NCBI GenBank assembly: GCA_019694345.1
Contig: JAIBCA010000069.1
Coordinates: 1-64,000 of the forward strand
Direction: 5' to 3'
Length of the DNA: 64,000 bases
DNA from: Pyrinomonadaceae bacterium
GTDB lineage: Bacteria; Acidobacteriota; Blastocatellia; Pyrinomonadales; Pyrinomonadaceae
Shown: positions 33,715 to 40,747 of the stretch, in pieces
Layout: each line of letters begins with the position of its first letter
How positions within the stretch are numbered: the stretch's first letter is position 1
The notes under the pieces: generated by a model
What the model was told of the DNA's origin: nothing
Seen by the model: only the letters and a program-made list of their open reading frames with translations
Database searches by the model: none
Program-made: the position numbers and the translations under genes

Positions 33715-36093
33715 TTAGAACCCGAATGACAAACCGATCCTGCCGCTGGCTTTGGCCGTCCTGAATCCGTTGTCGTAATACTCCTGGTCAAAGACATTTT
33801 CAACCGTACCGAACAAGCGAAGATTCATTTTTTCCCGCTTGATAGCGAAGGTGTATCCGGCAGTCAGATCTGCCTTTCGATTCCCCGTGAACCGATAGAC
33901 GTACGTTGAAAATGTTGAACTGCTGAAGATCGGTGCCAAATACGCCGTTGTCGCTAAAAGGTCAAAATTTATCCAGAATCGATCGAACCGCTGAGTCGCG
34001 ACCAAGGTGAACTGCTGCAACGGTACGCCAAGAGTCTTTAGGGTCCGGCTGCCGGACACTTGCGGGGTCATCTGGTCGCTGTTGGTGTAAGTGTACGACG
34101 CAAAAATGTCGGTCGACTTTGTTGGTTTGAACGTCGCACTGAACTCGCCTCCACGCGCGATCCCGCCTTTTTGATTCAAATATCCGCCAAATGGCCGTGT
34201 GGTTGTTCCGATGTTCGGCACAACGTTTCCGTAACCGATCACGTCCGTGAGTTTGGTATAAAAATAGGTCGCGGCCAGCCGCACCTTGTCGTTAACGAGG
34301 GTCTGCTCGACGCCCGCGTCAAAAGCGATCGATTTCTCCGGCTTCAGGAATGGATCGCCAAGGGCAACGAAGCTCGGCGTTCCGAAAGAGGAAAAGAATG
34401 TTCCCAACCTTTCATACAGCGAAGGCACACGATAACCGTTGCCGACATGGGCTCGGAATTTGGTGCCGGTTTCCGCCGCAAAATAAGAAGCCGATCCGTC
34501 AAATGTGTAAGCAGTTGGCGGGTTATCGAGGACGAGTCCGCTGTACGGTGCGTTCGTCAAGCTAAATGACGGTCGGTTGAGGCTATAACGTTGAACACGA
34601 AGACCGCCGGCGAACTGTAGTTTTCCCTCGAACAGCCGGACCAGATCCTGAAGGTATAAGGTGTTGCTTGACTGGCCGGCGTGTGTGAAAAAGTTACCGT
34701 TTCCCGATGGGGTTTTGCCAGCATTACCAAAATTTTCGAATTCGAACTCGTACCCGGCGGTAAGCTGGTTCTCACTGATGGGCATCCAGTTCAAATGAAT
34801 ATTCGCGGTGTGTATGCTGCCGTCAAATATGCTGCTTGATGCACTCTGATATCCGGCACCAAGCGTCCCATTGTCATTTGTCCGCTTCGTCGTAAGCCCT
34901 TGGTAATACCCGCTGACGACCAACTTGGTATTCACCACCTGATTCACCACAAGCTGGCCGCTGAAAAACCTGGACCGCTGGAAACTGTCGGGATCGTTTG
35001 CATCCGCCACGAAATTTACGCCCGGATCGGCATTGATTATCGTGGTGTTCGATGAGGGCAAAGTTCCGAACGTGTCCGGGCTCGAATTCAGACGAACCCG
35101 TGCGTCGGACAGAAAGAACCTGCTGGAAATACTCGTTTTTGAGAATGGCTTCAGTTCGATCCTCGATTGAAGATTCGTGTTGTTTGCATTGTCCTGCCCG
35201 TCGATGCCCTTGGTGTATGTGGTGCGCGAAACACCCGCGGAAATGCCAAATTTCCCATTTTTCAAACCGTGTGAAATATTTCCGCGAAATCGCCCGAGCC
35301 CCATTCCGCCGAAGGCTCCCGAGATCTGTCCGTGAGTGCCGGCGGCCGCACGCGGCGTCTGAAAGTCGACCGTTCCGCCGATAGCATTGGTACCATAGAT
35401 CGACGAACCCGAACCGCGCAGCACTTCGATCTTGCTGACACTGGTCAAGGTGATGTCGCTCAAGAACGGCGAGGCGTCACCGGTGATCGCCGCCGGGTCA
35501 CGCAACCTAATACCGTCTATCAACAACGCGGTATCCTGATTGCGAAGTCCGCGCGTCTTTATCGTCGCCGTTCTGCCAAATCCGCCTAACTGCTGAACGC
35601 GAAAACCGGGAATCGTTCGGAGCGACTCGATCATCGAAAAATCGGCACGGTCACGCAGCTCCTGCCCGCTGATCACGTTCACGGATTTTGACACTTCATC
35701 GACAGGTTGGCCGATCCCGGCCGAAACCGTCACGCTTTCAATGATCTTCATGGTTGAAACAAATACCGCGTAATCGGCCATTCCGAGTTCAAGGGCAAGT
35801 ACTGTTTCACGTCCTTCAGCGACAACTACAGACGCTCTGTAGGCTATCCCTTTGCCCGGTTCGCCTTCGGCTATCAACATATAACTCCCCGGCTTGAGAC
35901 CGGCAAATCTGTAGGTGCCTGTTTGATCGGTAACGGCTGTGAATGTCTTGTTTCCGGCCGGATCGTGGATCGTGACCTCGACCTTGGCCCCGGCGACGGC
36001 CGCACCTTTTTGAGTGACATTGCCCGATAGACCGCCGCCGGACTGGGTGAAAGCCGTGGCGGCACAAAATAATATTGTTGCAAGTAGCTTCAT
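33715..36093 (-). CDS. TonB-dependent receptor, BtuB-like, probable cobalamin receptor
   Basis: A 792-residue outer-membrane receptor with signal peptide ('LLATILFCAATAFTQ'). Residues ~20-100 are a carboxypeptidase-regulatory-like domain ('GAAVAGAKVEVTI', 'GTYRFAGLKPGSYML'). The plug domain follows ('SVNVISGQELRDRADFSM', 'ALLIDGIRLRDP', 'IEVLRGSGSSIYGTNAIGG'), then the barrel, ending in 'GRIGLSFGF' with the C-terminal Phe. It is on the same strand as a BtuCDF-like transporter and lies 279 bases after btuD. The riboswitch at 39367 is the main evidence for cobalamin as substrate; without it, a siderophore or haem receptor would be equally likely. Confidence 0.85.
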   Translation of the reverse strand: MKLLATILFCAATAFTQSGGGLSGNVTQKGAAVAGAKVEVTIHDPAGNKTFTAVTDQTGTYRFAGLKPGSYMLIAEGEPGKGIAYRASVVVAEGRETVLALELGMADYAVFVSTMKIIESVTVSAGIGQPVDEVSKSVNVISGQELRDRADFSMIESLRTIPGFRVQQLGGFGRTATIKTRGLRNQDTALLIDGIRLRDPAAITGDASPFLSDITLTSVSKIEVLRGSGSSIYGTNAIGGTVDFQTPRAAAGTHGQISGAFGGMGLGRFRGNISHGLKNGKFGISAGVSRTTYTKGIDGQDNANNTNLQSRIELKPFSKTSISSRFFLSDARVRLNSSPDTFGTLPSSNTTIINADPGVNFVADANDPDSFQRSRFFSGQLVVNQVVNTKLVVSGYYQGLTTKRTNDNGTLGAGYQSASSSIFDGSIHTANIHLNWMPISENQLTAGYEFEFENFGNAGKTPSGNGNFFTHAGQSSNTLYLQDLVRLFEGKLQFAGGLRVQRYSLNRPSFSLTNAPYSGLVLDNPPTAYTFDGSASYFAAETGTKFRAHVGNGYRVPSLYERLGTFFSSFGTPSFVALGDPFLKPEKSIAFDAGVEQTLVNDKVRLAATYFYTKLTDVIGYGNVVPNIGTTTRPFGGYLNQKGGIARGGEFSATFKPTKSTDIFASYTYTNSDQMTPQVSGSRTLKTLGVPLQQFTLVATQRFDRFWINFDLLATTAYLAPIFSSSTFSTYVYRFTGNRKADLTAGYTFAIKREKMNLRLFGTVENVFDQEYYDNGFRTAKASGRIGLSFGF

Positions 36094-36372
36094 TTATCTC
36101 TTGTTCTGCCCATCGCAGAATGGCTCCAAAACACAACAAACGGGCACAGTTCCAGGCTCGGCCAAATTCCGGATCGTCAACGGTGAAAACGGCTACCGTT
36201 TTGATATTCGCCATTCGACATCCATTATTTGATCTCACTGTTGCGTGGGCAGCGTTGGCATTACACCAAACTTCCTTTGCGTCGCTTGTCAACAAAAAAG
36301 ACGATGTTTGCCGCTACCTACACGAACCAATAGTGCTTCTCTATTCGTGCCAATCGAGGCTTAATAGTCCTT
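36094..36372. other. Intergenic region between btuD-like and receptor gene
   Basis: 279 bases upstream of the BtuB-like receptor. I looked for a second cobalamin box and found none. The receptor's transcript either starts here or continues from the riboswitch-controlled promoter; no terminator with a T-run is seen. Confidence 0.5.
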
Positions 36373-37143
36373 TCAAAATACGCTCGTAACCCGAACATTA
36401 CCGCTGACCGGATGCCGATCCAGCAAAACATCGACTCCAAAGGTATTGCGTATGTTCTCGGCCGTTAGAACTTCCGCGGGGGAACCCTGTGCGGTGATCT
36501 TTCCGGCTTTTAGCATCACGATCTCATCCGCAAATTCGGCGGCAAGATTAAGGTCGTGCGTGATCACTATTGCCGAACAGCCGCATTCAGCACAGCGTTT
36601 TCTAACAAGCCTGAACATCATCGCCTGATGCGAAAGATCGAGGTTTGCCGTCGGCTCATCGAGCAGCAGCGTCATCGAACCGGCTGCTAATGCTCGTGCC
36701 AATACGACCCGCTGACGTTCGCCGCCCGACAGGTGATTCATCAGCCGATCTTCAAATCCATCCAGGTCACAGTCACGCAAGGCATTGCGTGCAAACTCTA
36801 AGTCGCGTTCGGTTTCCCACCCAAGAGCTCCGCCATGGACGTAGCGGCCCGAGAGTACAAATTCAAGTACGGTCACGGGAAAACGCGTCTCGTTTTCCTG
36901 TGCGACCACCGCGACCTGCCCTGCGATCTCGCGGCGTGACATTTCGCTGATCCTCCGCGAAGTAAGCAATATCTCGCCATTCACCAGCGGCAGCGTGCCA
37001 TTGAGTGCCCGGATAAGCGTCGTTTTGCCAGCTCCGTTGGCTCCGAGAAGGGCAATGATCTCGCCTTCGCGCAGATCGAACGTGACGCCGCTCAAAACCG
37101 TGCGCTCGTCGTAACCAACCGAAATATCTCGAACCTCAAGCAT
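36373..37143 (-). CDS. BtuD/FecE-type ABC transporter ATPase
   Basis: A 256-residue ATPase of the iron-siderophore/cobalamin class. Walker A 'LLGANGAGKTTLIRAL', signature 'LSGGERQRVVLARAL', Walker B 'LLLDEPTANLDLSHQ', and the switch His in 'ITHDLNL' are all present. It powers the permease encoded 8 bases upstream. The cobalamin riboswitch in front of the operon makes B12 the likely substrate. Confidence 0.92.
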   Translation of the reverse strand: MLEVRDISVGYDERTVLSGVTFDLREGEIIALLGANGAGKTTLIRALNGTLPLVNGEILLTSRRISEMSRREIAGQVAVVAQENETRFPVTVLEFVLSGRYVHGGALGWETERDLEFARNALRDCDLDGFEDRLMNHLSGGERQRVVLARALAAGSMTLLLDEPTANLDLSHQAMMFRLVRKRCAECGCSAIVITHDLNLAAEFADEIVMLKAGKITAQGSPAEVLTAENIRNTFGVDVLLDRHPVSGNVRVTSVF

Positions 37144-37151
37144 CTGCTTTG

Positions 37152-38141
37152 TTATTTTCGCCTAAGCAAATAAATGAAAAGCGGCGCGCCAACAAGCGCC
37201 GTTATCGCTCCGACCGGCAATTCACGCGGCGCGATCGCCGTTCTGGCTATAGTATCGGCGAATATTACAAATATCGCTCCGGTGATAGCCGACAGCGGCA
37301 CGACCAGACGATTGTCGCTGCCGACCGTTAGTCTCACGAGATGCGGCACGATCAATCCGACGTATCCGACCGAACCGCTTGCGGCGACGGCGGCTCCGAC
37401 CACCAGACTTGCCGAACCAAAGACGAGCAAACGGACGCGCCCGACCTCGACACCAAAATCGAATGCATCACGCTCGCCGACCATCATCAGATTGAGAGCC
37501 TTTGCTTGCGAGGCAAGCACCAGCGTACCGATCAGCATTGCCCCGAAACTGATGTAGACGCCATTCATAGTTGACTGTGACAGATCACCCAGCAGCCAGA
37601 ACGTAAAACTGCGCAATTTGGCAACGTCAAGCAATGTCGTCAGCATTACGATCACAGACGAGAGGAATGTCGTAACGATCACACCCGAAAGGACCAACCG
37701 CTCGACGTTCATTCCGGTGCGGCTCCTTGCCATTCGATAGACCGCGACGGTTGCCAGGCCGGCACCCGCAAACGCAAGCAGCGGCCGCGACCACTCAAAA
37801 CTCTGAAAAAAAACGAATGCCAGCATTGTGCCCAACGCCGCGCCGTTCGAAACGCCCAAAAGGTACGGTTCGGCCAGCGGGTTTCGCAAGAGCGACTGCA
37901 GGCCGGCTCCGGCCACTGCCAGACTGGCCCCAACGGCGGCTCCAAGCAGGATCCGAGGCAAACGAATATCAAACAATATCGTTCGTTGCTGCTCTGACAG
38001 ATCGAACAAAGGGAGCCGTTCGGCCCCGAGCAAAGCCGCACCGAAAAGAACGATGAGAAGTAGCAAGATTAGTCCGCCGCCTACCAGCAGATATTTGCGT
38101 TTCGAATCGTTTTTCTTTACGGTCTTCAAATAAATTGCCAC
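37152..38141 (-). CDS. BtuC/FecCD-type ABC permease
   Basis: A 329-residue inner-membrane permease with about 9-10 helices, typical of FecCD family: 'LPRILLGAAVGASLAVAGAG', 'GVSNGAALGTMLAF', and 'VGLIVPHLVRLTVGSDNR'. It forms the translocation pore for a cobalamin or siderophore transporter with the ATPase 8 bases downstream. The start given is GTG at 38141, which lies inside a repeat hairpin (38138-38157); a TTG at 38129 is the alternative. Neither has a Shine-Dalgarno sequence. It seems the repeat was inserted against, or replaced, the original start region. Confidence 0.88.
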   Translation of the reverse strand: MAIYLKTVKKNDSKRKYLLVGGGLILLLLIVLFGAALLGAERLPLFDLSEQQRTILFDIRLPRILLGAAVGASLAVAGAGLQSLLRNPLAEPYLLGVSNGAALGTMLAFVFFQSFEWSRPLLAFAGAGLATVAVYRMARSRTGMNVERLVLSGVIVTTFLSSVIVMLTTLLDVAKLRSFTFWLLGDLSQSTMNGVYISFGAMLIGTLVLASQAKALNLMMVGERDAFDFGVEVGRVRLLVFGSASLVVGAAVAASGSVGYVGLIVPHLVRLTVGSDNRLVVPLSAITGAIFVIFADTIARTAIAPRELPVGAITALVGAPLFIYLLRRK

Positions 38142-38264: not shown

Positions 38265-39221
38265 CTACTTGAACTTCTCGGGATGCAGATCCTTTGCGAT
38301 CTGCTCCAACGCATCGACCAACCTCGGTCCCGGCCGGGAGATCAGATCAGCGTTTATCCTATATACGCGTCCATTTTTTACTGCAGGCGAATTCTTAAAA
38401 ACCTCGTTTGGCTCTTTGTTGTCCTCGCTGTCGGAAAGAATTACGACCTCGGGGTTTAAGGTCAATGCGGTTTCCTTACTTACCTTTGGATAATCTGTCT
38501 CCAGGTTTGCGGTGACCGATTGTCCGCCCGCACTTACAATCACATCCTGAAGGAACGAGGATTTGCCGATTGTGAATAGAGGCTCCTTAGAAATTTGTAC
38601 GAAGACCTTATTCTGGTAAACCAAATCCATCGGATATCTGGGATCGTAAGTGCTGAAACTCCTCACTTTTGCTACTCGTTCGTTAAGCGACTCAGCTAGT
38701 GCATTGGCAAGTGAGGCGGTACCGAATAGATCACCCAATCTCCGGATTCCGGTCATGACACCTTCGAGTGAGCCGGGATTCGAAACATAAACCGCAATTC
38801 CATTCGCCTCAAGCGTTTTCATAAACGCTTCGATCTGTGATGCCGTCGATACAAAGACAATGTCCGGTTTTAGGGCAACGATCGACTCCATGTTCGGGTT
38901 CATCGTATCCCCGATCTTCGCGATCGACTTTGCCTCTTCGGGATAATTGCAAAATGTGGTAACGCCGACCAATCGATCGCCGGCTCCAACTGCGAATATG
39001 TTCTCAGTCAGATTCGGTGCCAAAGAGACTACACGCGTAACTTTTGTCGGGATCGTCACACTACGCCCCAGGTCGTCTGTCACGACACGCATTGCTACTG
39101 GCGTAGAGCCAACCGCCCCTGCAGAGTTATTGCCTGACGACGTCCGCCCGCCGCAGGCCGACAATAATGCCGCGGCGAGCAGAAGTACGATCCAAACTTT
39201 TTCACCTTTCGACTTTTTCAC
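38265..39221 (-). CDS. BtuF-type ABC substrate-binding lipoprotein
   Basis: A 318-residue periplasmic-binding protein with a lipoprotein signal: 'LLLAAALLSACGG', lipobox LSAC with C23. The class III binding fold shows 'RVVSLAPNLTENIFAVGAGD' and 'VGVTTFCNYPEEAKSIAKIG', typical of BtuF and of siderophore/haem binders. The start is GTG at 39221 with AAGGTG 5 bases upstream. It is the first gene after the cobalamin riboswitch and is therefore the likely B12-binding component. Confidence 0.9.
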   Translation of the reverse strand: MKKSKGEKVWIVLLLAAALLSACGGRTSSGNNSAGAVGSTPVAMRVVTDDLGRSVTIPTKVTRVVSLAPNLTENIFAVGAGDRLVGVTTFCNYPEEAKSIAKIGDTMNPNMESIVALKPDIVFVSTASQIEAFMKTLEANGIAVYVSNPGSLEGVMTGIRRLGDLFGTASLANALAESLNERVAKVRSFSTYDPRYPMDLVYQNKVFVQISKEPLFTIGKSSFLQDVIVSAGGQSVTANLETDYPKVSKETALTLNPEVVILSDSEDNKEPNEVFKNSPAVKNGRVYRINADLISRPGPRLVDALEQIAKDLHPEKFK

Positions 39222-39244
39222 TTATTCACCTTCGCAGACGCCAA

Positions 39245-39295
39245 AACGCCCTGCTTCTCCGCGTCGAGCTACATCGACCAGAAAAACAAGGCGTT
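39245..39295 (-). promoter_or_regulatory. Possible expression-platform stem before btuF start
   Basis: In the minus-strand RNA, AACGCCTTG pairs with CAGGGCGTT (39287-39295 with 39245-39253; one G-U pair), enclosing a smaller GTCGA/TCGAC hairpin. It sits just upstream of the btuF ribosome-binding site, so it could hinder translation or act as a weak terminator once ligand is bound. The link to the riboswitch is inferred. Confidence 0.35.
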
Positions 39296-39366
39296 CCAAA
39301 AATTAAGATTGAAAAACGATGTCTGCCGGCGATGTTTTGACGCGAAACACCAGGTTGGCAATAACG

Positions 39367-39471
39367 TTTGAGGCAGGCGTTCTGACTTATGTATTCACAG
39401 TGACGCGATCGTGCGGGAGTCTCACCCGGCTTTCCCTTTTATGCCGGTTCTTGAAAAAGCGGCACCTCAAA
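39367..39471 (-). promoter_or_regulatory. Cobalamin riboswitch, compact form
   Basis: Read on the minus strand: P1 arm TTTGAGG (39465-39471) with CCTCAAA (39367-39373); a P2-like hairpin TGCCG...CGGCA; the core segment with GGGAAAGCCGGGTGAGACTC and CGCGTCACTGTGA; and the B12-box-like AAGTCAGAACGCCTGCC (39372-39388). The order and sequences match the cobalamin aptamer. Only about 10 bases separate CACTGTGA from AGTCAG, so the peripheral domain of the long adenosylcobalamin form is absent and the aptamer is ~105 nt. It precedes the BtuF/C/D-like operon and, with the ligand bound, should lower expression. Confidence 0.85.
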
Positions 39472-39500
39472 GCTATAAATTTTTAAAGACCAAGCGGCAG

Positions 39501-39529
39501 ATTATTGCCCTAAAATGGTTAAAAGTCAA
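39501..39529 (-). promoter_or_regulatory. Promoter of the riboswitch-btuF operon
   Basis: On the minus strand: TTGACT (39524-39529), a 17-base spacer, then AATAAT (39501-39506). Both hexamers match 5 of 6 consensus bases, and the transcript would begin some 20-25 bases before P1 of the cobalamin aptamer. Confidence 0.7.
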
Positions 39530-40050: not shown

Positions 40051-40413
40051 CTACCAACGGCCGCCGCCGCCGTATCCGCCGCCACCGCGGTTTCCACCGC
40101 CGTAACCACCACCGCCACCGCGGTTTCCACCGCCGTAGCCGCCACGGCCGCCGCCGCTGCGGTTCTCTTGCGGTTTCGCCTCGTTGACCTTGAGTGCACG
40201 CCCATCGACTTCCTTGCCGTTCAGCTGCGCGATGGCATTTTCACCCTCCGCCTGCGATGCCATTTCGACAAAACCAAAGCCACGTGAGCGGCCGGTCTCG
40301 CGGTCTTCGATGATGTTGGCCGACTCGACGGTGCCGATAGCACCGAAAAGATCGTTAAGATCCTGATTTGTTGTGTTGAAGGAAATGTTTCCAACGTATA
40401 GTTTCATTGACAT
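40051..40413 (-). CDS. Glycine-rich RRM RNA-binding protein
   Basis: A 120-residue protein with one RNA recognition motif. RNP2 is 'KLYVGNISF' and RNP1 is 'SRGFGFVEM', both intact with the aromatic residues that stack on RNA. The C-terminal ~35 residues are Gly/Arg/Tyr repeats ('GGGRGGYGGGNRGGGGGYGG'). Such proteins in cyanobacteria and others bind RNA in the cold. The start is ATG 40413 (an in-frame ATG at 40407 is also possible), with AAGG 10 bases upstream. A long, base-paired leader of about 300 bases precedes it, which would suit temperature control. It ends 24 bases before a terminator. Confidence 0.92.
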   Translation of the reverse strand: MSMKLYVGNISFNTTNQDLNDLFGAIGTVESANIIEDRETGRSRGFGFVEMASQAEGENAIAQLNGKEVDGRALKVNEAKPQENRSGGGRGGYGGGNRGGGGGYGGGNRGGGGYGGGGRW

Positions 40414-40747
40414 TGTTATGTTTACCTTGCCTCTTTTCGAGGTTTCTAAAGAAGTGTCGAACCGGTCTTGCGTCAAATAGAAACTATCGTCGTGCGAAGG
40501 AAACGGATCTCTGATACTCAAAAACTGAGAGCTACTTCTGATTAACTATTAGGGCCCGCTCTCAAACTTATCCAGAAATCGTTAAAGACGAAGCGCACCA
40601 TCAAAGGCGCGAGAGAAGGATTAACTCTTTGAGTATGACCGTCTTTAAGGTAAATAGCAACCTCTAATTTCATGCAATTGGGTGGCCGGCATATCGGACG
40701 GCCGTCCACGGCGATCCGAGCGCCATCCTGATGGTTACGCCCGCCCG
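40414..40747 (-). other. Structured leader/intergenic region upstream of RRM gene
   Basis: 334 bases between the RRM start and the end of the GH38 gene. Complementary arms seen: TTAAAGACG (40582-40590) with CGTCTTTAA (40640-40648), and ATACTCAAA (40514-40522) with TTTGAGTAT (40628-40636). They overlap, so they would form alternative folds rather than coexist fully. No coding frame is supported. A TTGACG -35-like hexamer near 40480 lacks a good -10. Confidence 0.45.

Follow-up and report, generated by a model that had tools for sequence, protein, structure and literature searches.

An uptake locus of a Pyrinomonadaceae bacterium carries two differently built B12 riboswitches, one (riboswitch A, before btuFCD) apparently transcriptional and the other (riboswitch B, before a TonB-dependent receptor gene) apparently translational. 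Judged from its sequence, riboswitch A is a genuine, shortened cobalamin riboswitch that most likely senses vitamin B12. The window, that is, the whole analyzed stretch, comprises 64,000 nt of assembly GCA_019694345.1 (contig JAIBCA010000069.1), and all coordinates count from window position 1 (Table 1). Computed in this work were aptamer homology and covariation, the conserved terminator, the promoter, the synteny, and the presence of two riboswitches at the locus. The cobalamin riboswitch is a known kind of element; new here are an order-wide compact group, which general models score weakly or miss, a putative CGCG kissing loop, a J6/3 strand that appears to be free to vary, and two unlike B12 switches at one uptake locus. 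Our literature search, which was thin on subscription journals, retrieved no paper on such riboswitches in this group or joining riboswitches with Blastocatellia.

A compact cobalamin riboswitch before a btuFCD-type operon

The sequence-only reading proposed a compact cobalamin riboswitch, to be checked with Infernal against the Rfam cobalamin families. A cmscan search of the whole window recovered it: RF00174 (Cobalamin) matched the minus strand over the full model span (39484..39355) with 47.3 bits (E=1e-8) against a gathering cut-off of 31.5 bits, a score that excludes a chance match. It was the sole riboswitch match in the window, and the 3.5-Mb genome contains no further match to RF00174. 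An order-specific covariance model, R1, scored riboswitch A at 112 bits, the window being part of its training set. The P3-P6 core with complementary L5 and L13 loops that defines RF00174 was found, and its helices covary. Minimum free energy folding of the aptamer alone did not reveal the aptamer (z 0.06); with the folding energy thus unremarkable, the case is comparative rather than thermodynamic, built on homology and covariation.

Both sequence blocks named in that reading, the B12-box-like AAGTCAGAACGCCTGCC (39388..39372) and the CGCGTCACTGTGA core, are present on the minus strand. Its P1 stem (UUUGAGG/CCUCAAA) is also present, but spans ~12 bp with one bulged base rather than 7 bp. The long peripheral domain is indeed missing, the usual 68-nt P7-P11 insert being reduced to 5–6 nt, although the gap between CACTGTGA and AAGTCAG measures 6 nt, not ~10. 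The proposed end at 39367 proved too short, because P13 and the terminator belong to the element and extend it to about 39243.

Table 1. Features of the two riboswitches and of the uptake genes, in window coordinates
Feature	Positions	Strand	Remarks
Riboswitch A, compact cobalamin aptamer	39355..39484	(-)	RF00174 match
P1 5' strand, AUAGCUUUGAGG	39465..39476	(-)	pairs with 39373-39361, one bulged C
P1 3' strand, CCUCAAAcGUUAU	39361..39373	(-)	pairs with 39476-39465, one bulged C
P2 hairpin, GUGCCG..CGGCAU	39441..39464	(-)	missing in part of the genus
P4, UGAGA-type loop	39414..39429	(-)	helix 100% paired, G-C/A-U compensations
P5/L5, GA[UCGCG]UC	39402..39410	(-)	L5 UCGCG invariant in the order
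P6, 5-6-nt remnant at the usual P7-P11 insert site	39382..39402	(-)	middle pair covaries
J6/3 AACG and P3 3' CC (canonical GAGACC)	39376..39381	(-)	
P13 hairpin, GGUGUUU-CGCGUCA-AAACAUC	39331..39351	(-)	L13 CGCG able to kiss L5
Intrinsic terminator, hairpin and U tract	39243..39297	(-)	-34.1 kcal/mol, z -6.68, 0/200 shuffles
Sigma-70-like promoter, TTGACT-17-AATAAT	39501..39529	(-)	consensus match; enriched in relatives
Riboswitch B, second compact cobalamin riboswitch, P6 hairpin-extended	36104..36290	(-)	before the TonB receptor gene, 3 kb downstream of A
P13 hairpin of riboswitch B, UUCUGC-GAUGG-GCAGAA	36104..36120	(-)	directly before the ribosome-binding site
btuF-like periplasmic binding lipoprotein, GTG start	38265..39221	(-)	PF01497 (Peripla_BP_2); BtuF model 129 bits, below its cut-off
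btuC-like permease	37152..38141	(-)	FecCD PF01032 298.7 bits; BtuC the best NCBIfam match, below cut-off
btuD-like ATPase	36373..37143	(-)	corrinoid/heme ABC ATPase models, below cut-offs
TonB-dependent receptor, BtuB-like by position	33715..36093	(-)	Plug domain; TonB-B12 model 96.6 bits, below cut-off

Across 27 aligned type A relatives, standard pairs filled 92.9% of the pair cells, a share that fell to 31–46% when the partners were slid against each other, and eight pairs were changed on both sides, yielding 35 double-change cells versus 8.8 in shuffles (0/500). The middle pair of P6, for instance, occurred as U-A in 15 relatives, C-G in 9, and A-U in 3. Where P2 is absent, as in part of the genus, aptamers can be no longer than about 77 nt (L049). 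The P6 tips of both riboswitch types frequently carry species-specific inserts of short repeated fold-back words, such as GGATTTTGGATTTT..AATCCAAAATCC (L043:7213-7468, L065:4462-4713, L036:3248-3432, and others), as if insertion of repeats were tolerated in the P6 loop.

L5 reads UCGCG in all 66 distinct type A sequences and L13 carries CGCG in all 64 in which both loops were parsed; the pair closing L5 is A-U in the clade of the window and G-C in the other relatives. Since the published L5 consensus is UCCCG (PMC10653944), the middle base appears to have been swapped in both loops. Within the order the L5-L13 match does not vary, and its covariation is seen solely against that outside consensus. 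The computed complementarity suggests that L5 may kiss L13. The CGCG in both L5 (39402-39410) and L13 is also self-complementary, and two RNA copies could therefore in principle kiss each other.

As the sequence-only reading had placed it, a BtuF/BtuC/BtuD-type ABC transporter follows on the same strand, and members of the genus share the gene order btuF-btuC-btuD-TonB receptor. The best matches of the uptake genes include NCBIfam B12 models, but all of these score below the curated cut-offs, and the B12 assignment of the genes consequently leans on the RNA. Given that the genome encodes MetH, methylmalonyl-CoA mutase, and class II RNR, whereas CbiC was not found in it, the bacterium probably depends on corrinoid uptake, importing corrinoids and using both methyl- and adenosylcobalamin. 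A search of the genome for the PduO-type adenosyltransferase, the one adenosyltransferase family considered, gave no match. A gene for an RRM-domain RNA-binding protein with a glycine-rich tail (40051-40521, minus strand) is located upstream of the riboswitch promoter, some 0.5 kb away.

Switching of riboswitch A

The consensus promoter TTGACT-17-AATAAT of the earlier reading is in place (39529..39501) and conserved, 26 of the 64 regions upstream of the riboswitch in relatives containing a promoter with 10 or more of the 12 consensus bases, versus 0.9 in shuffles. The terminator of the window ends about 20 nt upstream of btuF, and about 60 of the 66 type A loci have a hairpin plus U tract after P13 (61 pass the cut of -18 kcal/mol, at least one of them, L103, being a false pick). 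An intrinsic terminator between P13 and the gene is the arrangement of a transcription-terminating, repressing corrinoid riboswitch. In the sub-clade of L033, L044, and L051, the GTG at which btuF probably starts falls within the 3' arm of the terminator, so that the hairpin could also block translation there.

Because L13 can kiss L5 and a strong terminator precedes btuF, riboswitch A is most likely a transcription-terminating OFF switch, and we consider it highly probable that this shortened cobalamin riboswitch turns btuFCD off when B12 is sufficient. We infer ligand binding, the OFF direction, the kissing loop, and the antiterminator in the following scheme. RNA polymerase would start just 3' of the -10 box (39506-39501) and transcribe the aptamer; cobalamin bound at the P3-P6 junction would let L5 kiss L13 and thereby hold P13, whereupon the terminator (39297-39243) would fold and stop transcription ahead of btuF. 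Without ligand, P13 would be free, and its 3' strand or the stretch that follows would probably pair with the terminator's 5' arm, and the operon would then be read. This mechanism has been tested by mutation in the metE switch of P. megaterium (PMC10653944).

At -10.0 kcal/mol, P13 together with its outer stem matches the antiterminator candidates of the window in stability (-7 to -10 kcal/mol), a point against the proposed switch between states. The candidates were examined by a permutation comparison of cognate and non-cognate duplexes. The 3' strand of P13 offers a possible pairing, with cognate duplexes no better than non-cognate ones (z -1.1), and the 5' strand of P3 was rejected likewise (z +0.5). 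When truncated transcripts were folded, pairing of the terminator's 5' arm fell mostly on the linker that follows P13 (mean 0.27), and no one partner was conserved.

A second riboswitch at the locus and the distribution of both types

Riboswitch B falls below the RF00174 cut-off (19.7 bits; E=0.004 when 331 bases were searched), whereas R2, a model built from 16 relatives with the window excluded, scores it at 80.1 bits (E=2e-17). Its core is the same as that of riboswitch A (GGAAG..GGUG..CUGCCCACGCAACAGUGA..AGCCUGGAAC), and its P6 bears an 80-nt extension that may fold as a hairpin, for which the evidence is weak (z -1.35). The 16 type B relatives contain 26 double-change cells, and one position of P3 displays all four Watson-Crick pair types. 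Translational control is likely because P13 adjoins the ribosome-binding site, and ligand would thus block translation of the TonB receptor. In the window copy, P3 is mismatched at one position and the ribosome-binding site is weak, so that this copy may be less effective than those of its relatives. We found no promoter for riboswitch B on its strand; the receptor gene may accordingly be read through from btuFCD and stand under both switches.

R1 matches 90 of the 119 genomes of the order Pyrinomonadales and, mostly weakly, some genomes elsewhere in the class. In 60 related genomes, the RF00174 matches outside the genus are long and strong, whereas those within it are mostly short and weak. 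Within the genus two kinds occur, type A before btuF and type B before the TonB receptor gene. A few long forms within the genus precede other genes. In L038, L042, L045, L047, and L056, full-length cobalamin riboswitches precede a gene for a small membrane protein, a radical-SAM-like gene, or both, and not btuFCD. Named records with the same locus are mostly metagenome-assembled genomes of Pyrinomonadaceae and other Acidobacteriota.

J6/3 variation, ligand preference, and relation to known riboswitches

Outside the order, the strand after P6 reads GAGACC with few exceptions, and among the Pyrinomonadales relatives with the G-C loop closure, J6/3 is GAGA in 14 of 26 and GAAA in 5 of 26. The A-U closure clade of the window is different, with 25 different J6/3 4-mers in 39 sequences, nearly a random assortment, and an entropy of 1.7–1.8 bits at three of the four positions; these counts come from related sequences and are not independent events, yet the difference from L5 and P6, which are fixed, remains plain. 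The J6/3 of the window, AACG, departs from the canonical form, which same-locus relatives retain, whereas in type B this strand hardly varies (GGAAC). No clear signal beyond relatedness emerged from the mutual information of J6/3 with the other columns.

We tentatively suggest, as a possibility with less than even support, that in one Pyrinomonadaceae clade J6/3 of the btuF riboswitch has been freed from its usual constraint, or retuned in each species to the corrinoid form of its habitat, while the rest of the switch stayed fixed. Simple decay, in which ligand control was lost and the leader merely attenuates constitutively, would account for the near-random J6/3 and for RF00174 scores that are lower inside the genus than outside; we regard it as very improbable, because neutral decay would not keep the helices, terminator, and promoter, and the same sequences retain P4, P5/L5, P6, P13, terminator, and promoter, partly with compensatory change. 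Only slightly less improbable is that J6/3 varies since it doubles as the antiterminator and pairs with the 3' arm of the terminator. The window offers such a pairing (AACGCC-UGC with GCA-G-GGCGUU, 9 bp with one bulge), which reaches -13.8 kcal/mol in L126, among the nearest relatives and identical to the window in these letters, and the L033 clade has CACCUGU/ACAGGUG. The permutation gave z -2.2 (p=0.015, uncorrected), but with the clade isolated and near-identical loci thinned, cognate pairings were no better than non-cognate ones (z about 0), and we rejected this candidate. If J6/3 was instead freed or retuned, the clade would amount to a naturally occurring set of ligand-selectivity variants that share a single scaffold, adjoining a second riboswitch with fixed J6/3 at the same locus; were the variation functional, the ~25 natural variants on a near-constant scaffold would make the determinants of upper-ligand selectivity directly testable.

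J6/3 also bears on the ligand, which is probably AdoCbl or mixed. A switch of class IIa type, in which a small J6/3 pocket excludes the adenosyl group and so selects methyl- or hydroxocobalamin, would fit the absent P7-P11 and the AACG of the window, one base from AAUG, the J6/3 of the hydroxocobalamin-selective env8 RNA. It would also fit same-locus relatives without P2, which exceed the RF01689 threshold of 36.5 bits with up to 45.6 bits. We nevertheless hold this reading to be unlikely: riboswitch A itself does not pass RF01689 (30.5 bits, with 16.2 for riboswitch B), orthologous relatives retain GAGA or GAAA, and a J6/3 fixing one ligand in the clade should not vary near-randomly. Nor is the missing P7-P11 diagnostic of class IIa, since it is common to IIb; classes I and IIb select AdoCbl and IIa selects methyl- or hydroxocobalamin (PMC11260477). 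The preference for methyl- or hydroxocobalamin that the sequence-only reading drew from compactness is hence unsupported, as compact class IIb and the B. subtilis btuF switch answer to AdoCbl (PMC11260477, PMC9600662). The latter, with a short P6, responded in cells to AdoCbl only, an earlier in vitro report having differed (PMC9600662).

Riboswitch A shares with the RF00174 family the P1-P6 core, the complementary L5 and L13, and the site before btuF, but differs in lacking the P7-P11 insert, in a J6/3 other than GAGA, and in an L5 of UCGCG instead of UCCCG. With env8HyCbl it has in common a minimal core without the peripheral domain and perhaps a similar J6/3; env8HyCbl is translational, whereas riboswitch A has P1-P2 and a terminator. 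RF01689 (AdoCbl-II), formerly AdoCbl-variant and reported as marine (PMC2864571), likewise has a short P6 and no P7-P11, and its threshold is passed by several type B copies as well as by the same-locus relatives, but riboswitch A keeps P1-P2. The B. subtilis btuF riboswitch resembles riboswitch A in its short P6 accessory region, its control of btuF, and its L5-L13 kissing loop (putative in A), and differs in sequence and in having two short P6 accessory stems, of which riboswitch A has none (PMC9600662). The antiterminator partner demonstrated in the P. megaterium metE riboswitch is a proposed one in riboswitch A, and the two have the same layout, in which a P13 stabilized by kissing favors, or in riboswitch A would favor, the intrinsic terminator and represses the gene downstream (PMC10653944).
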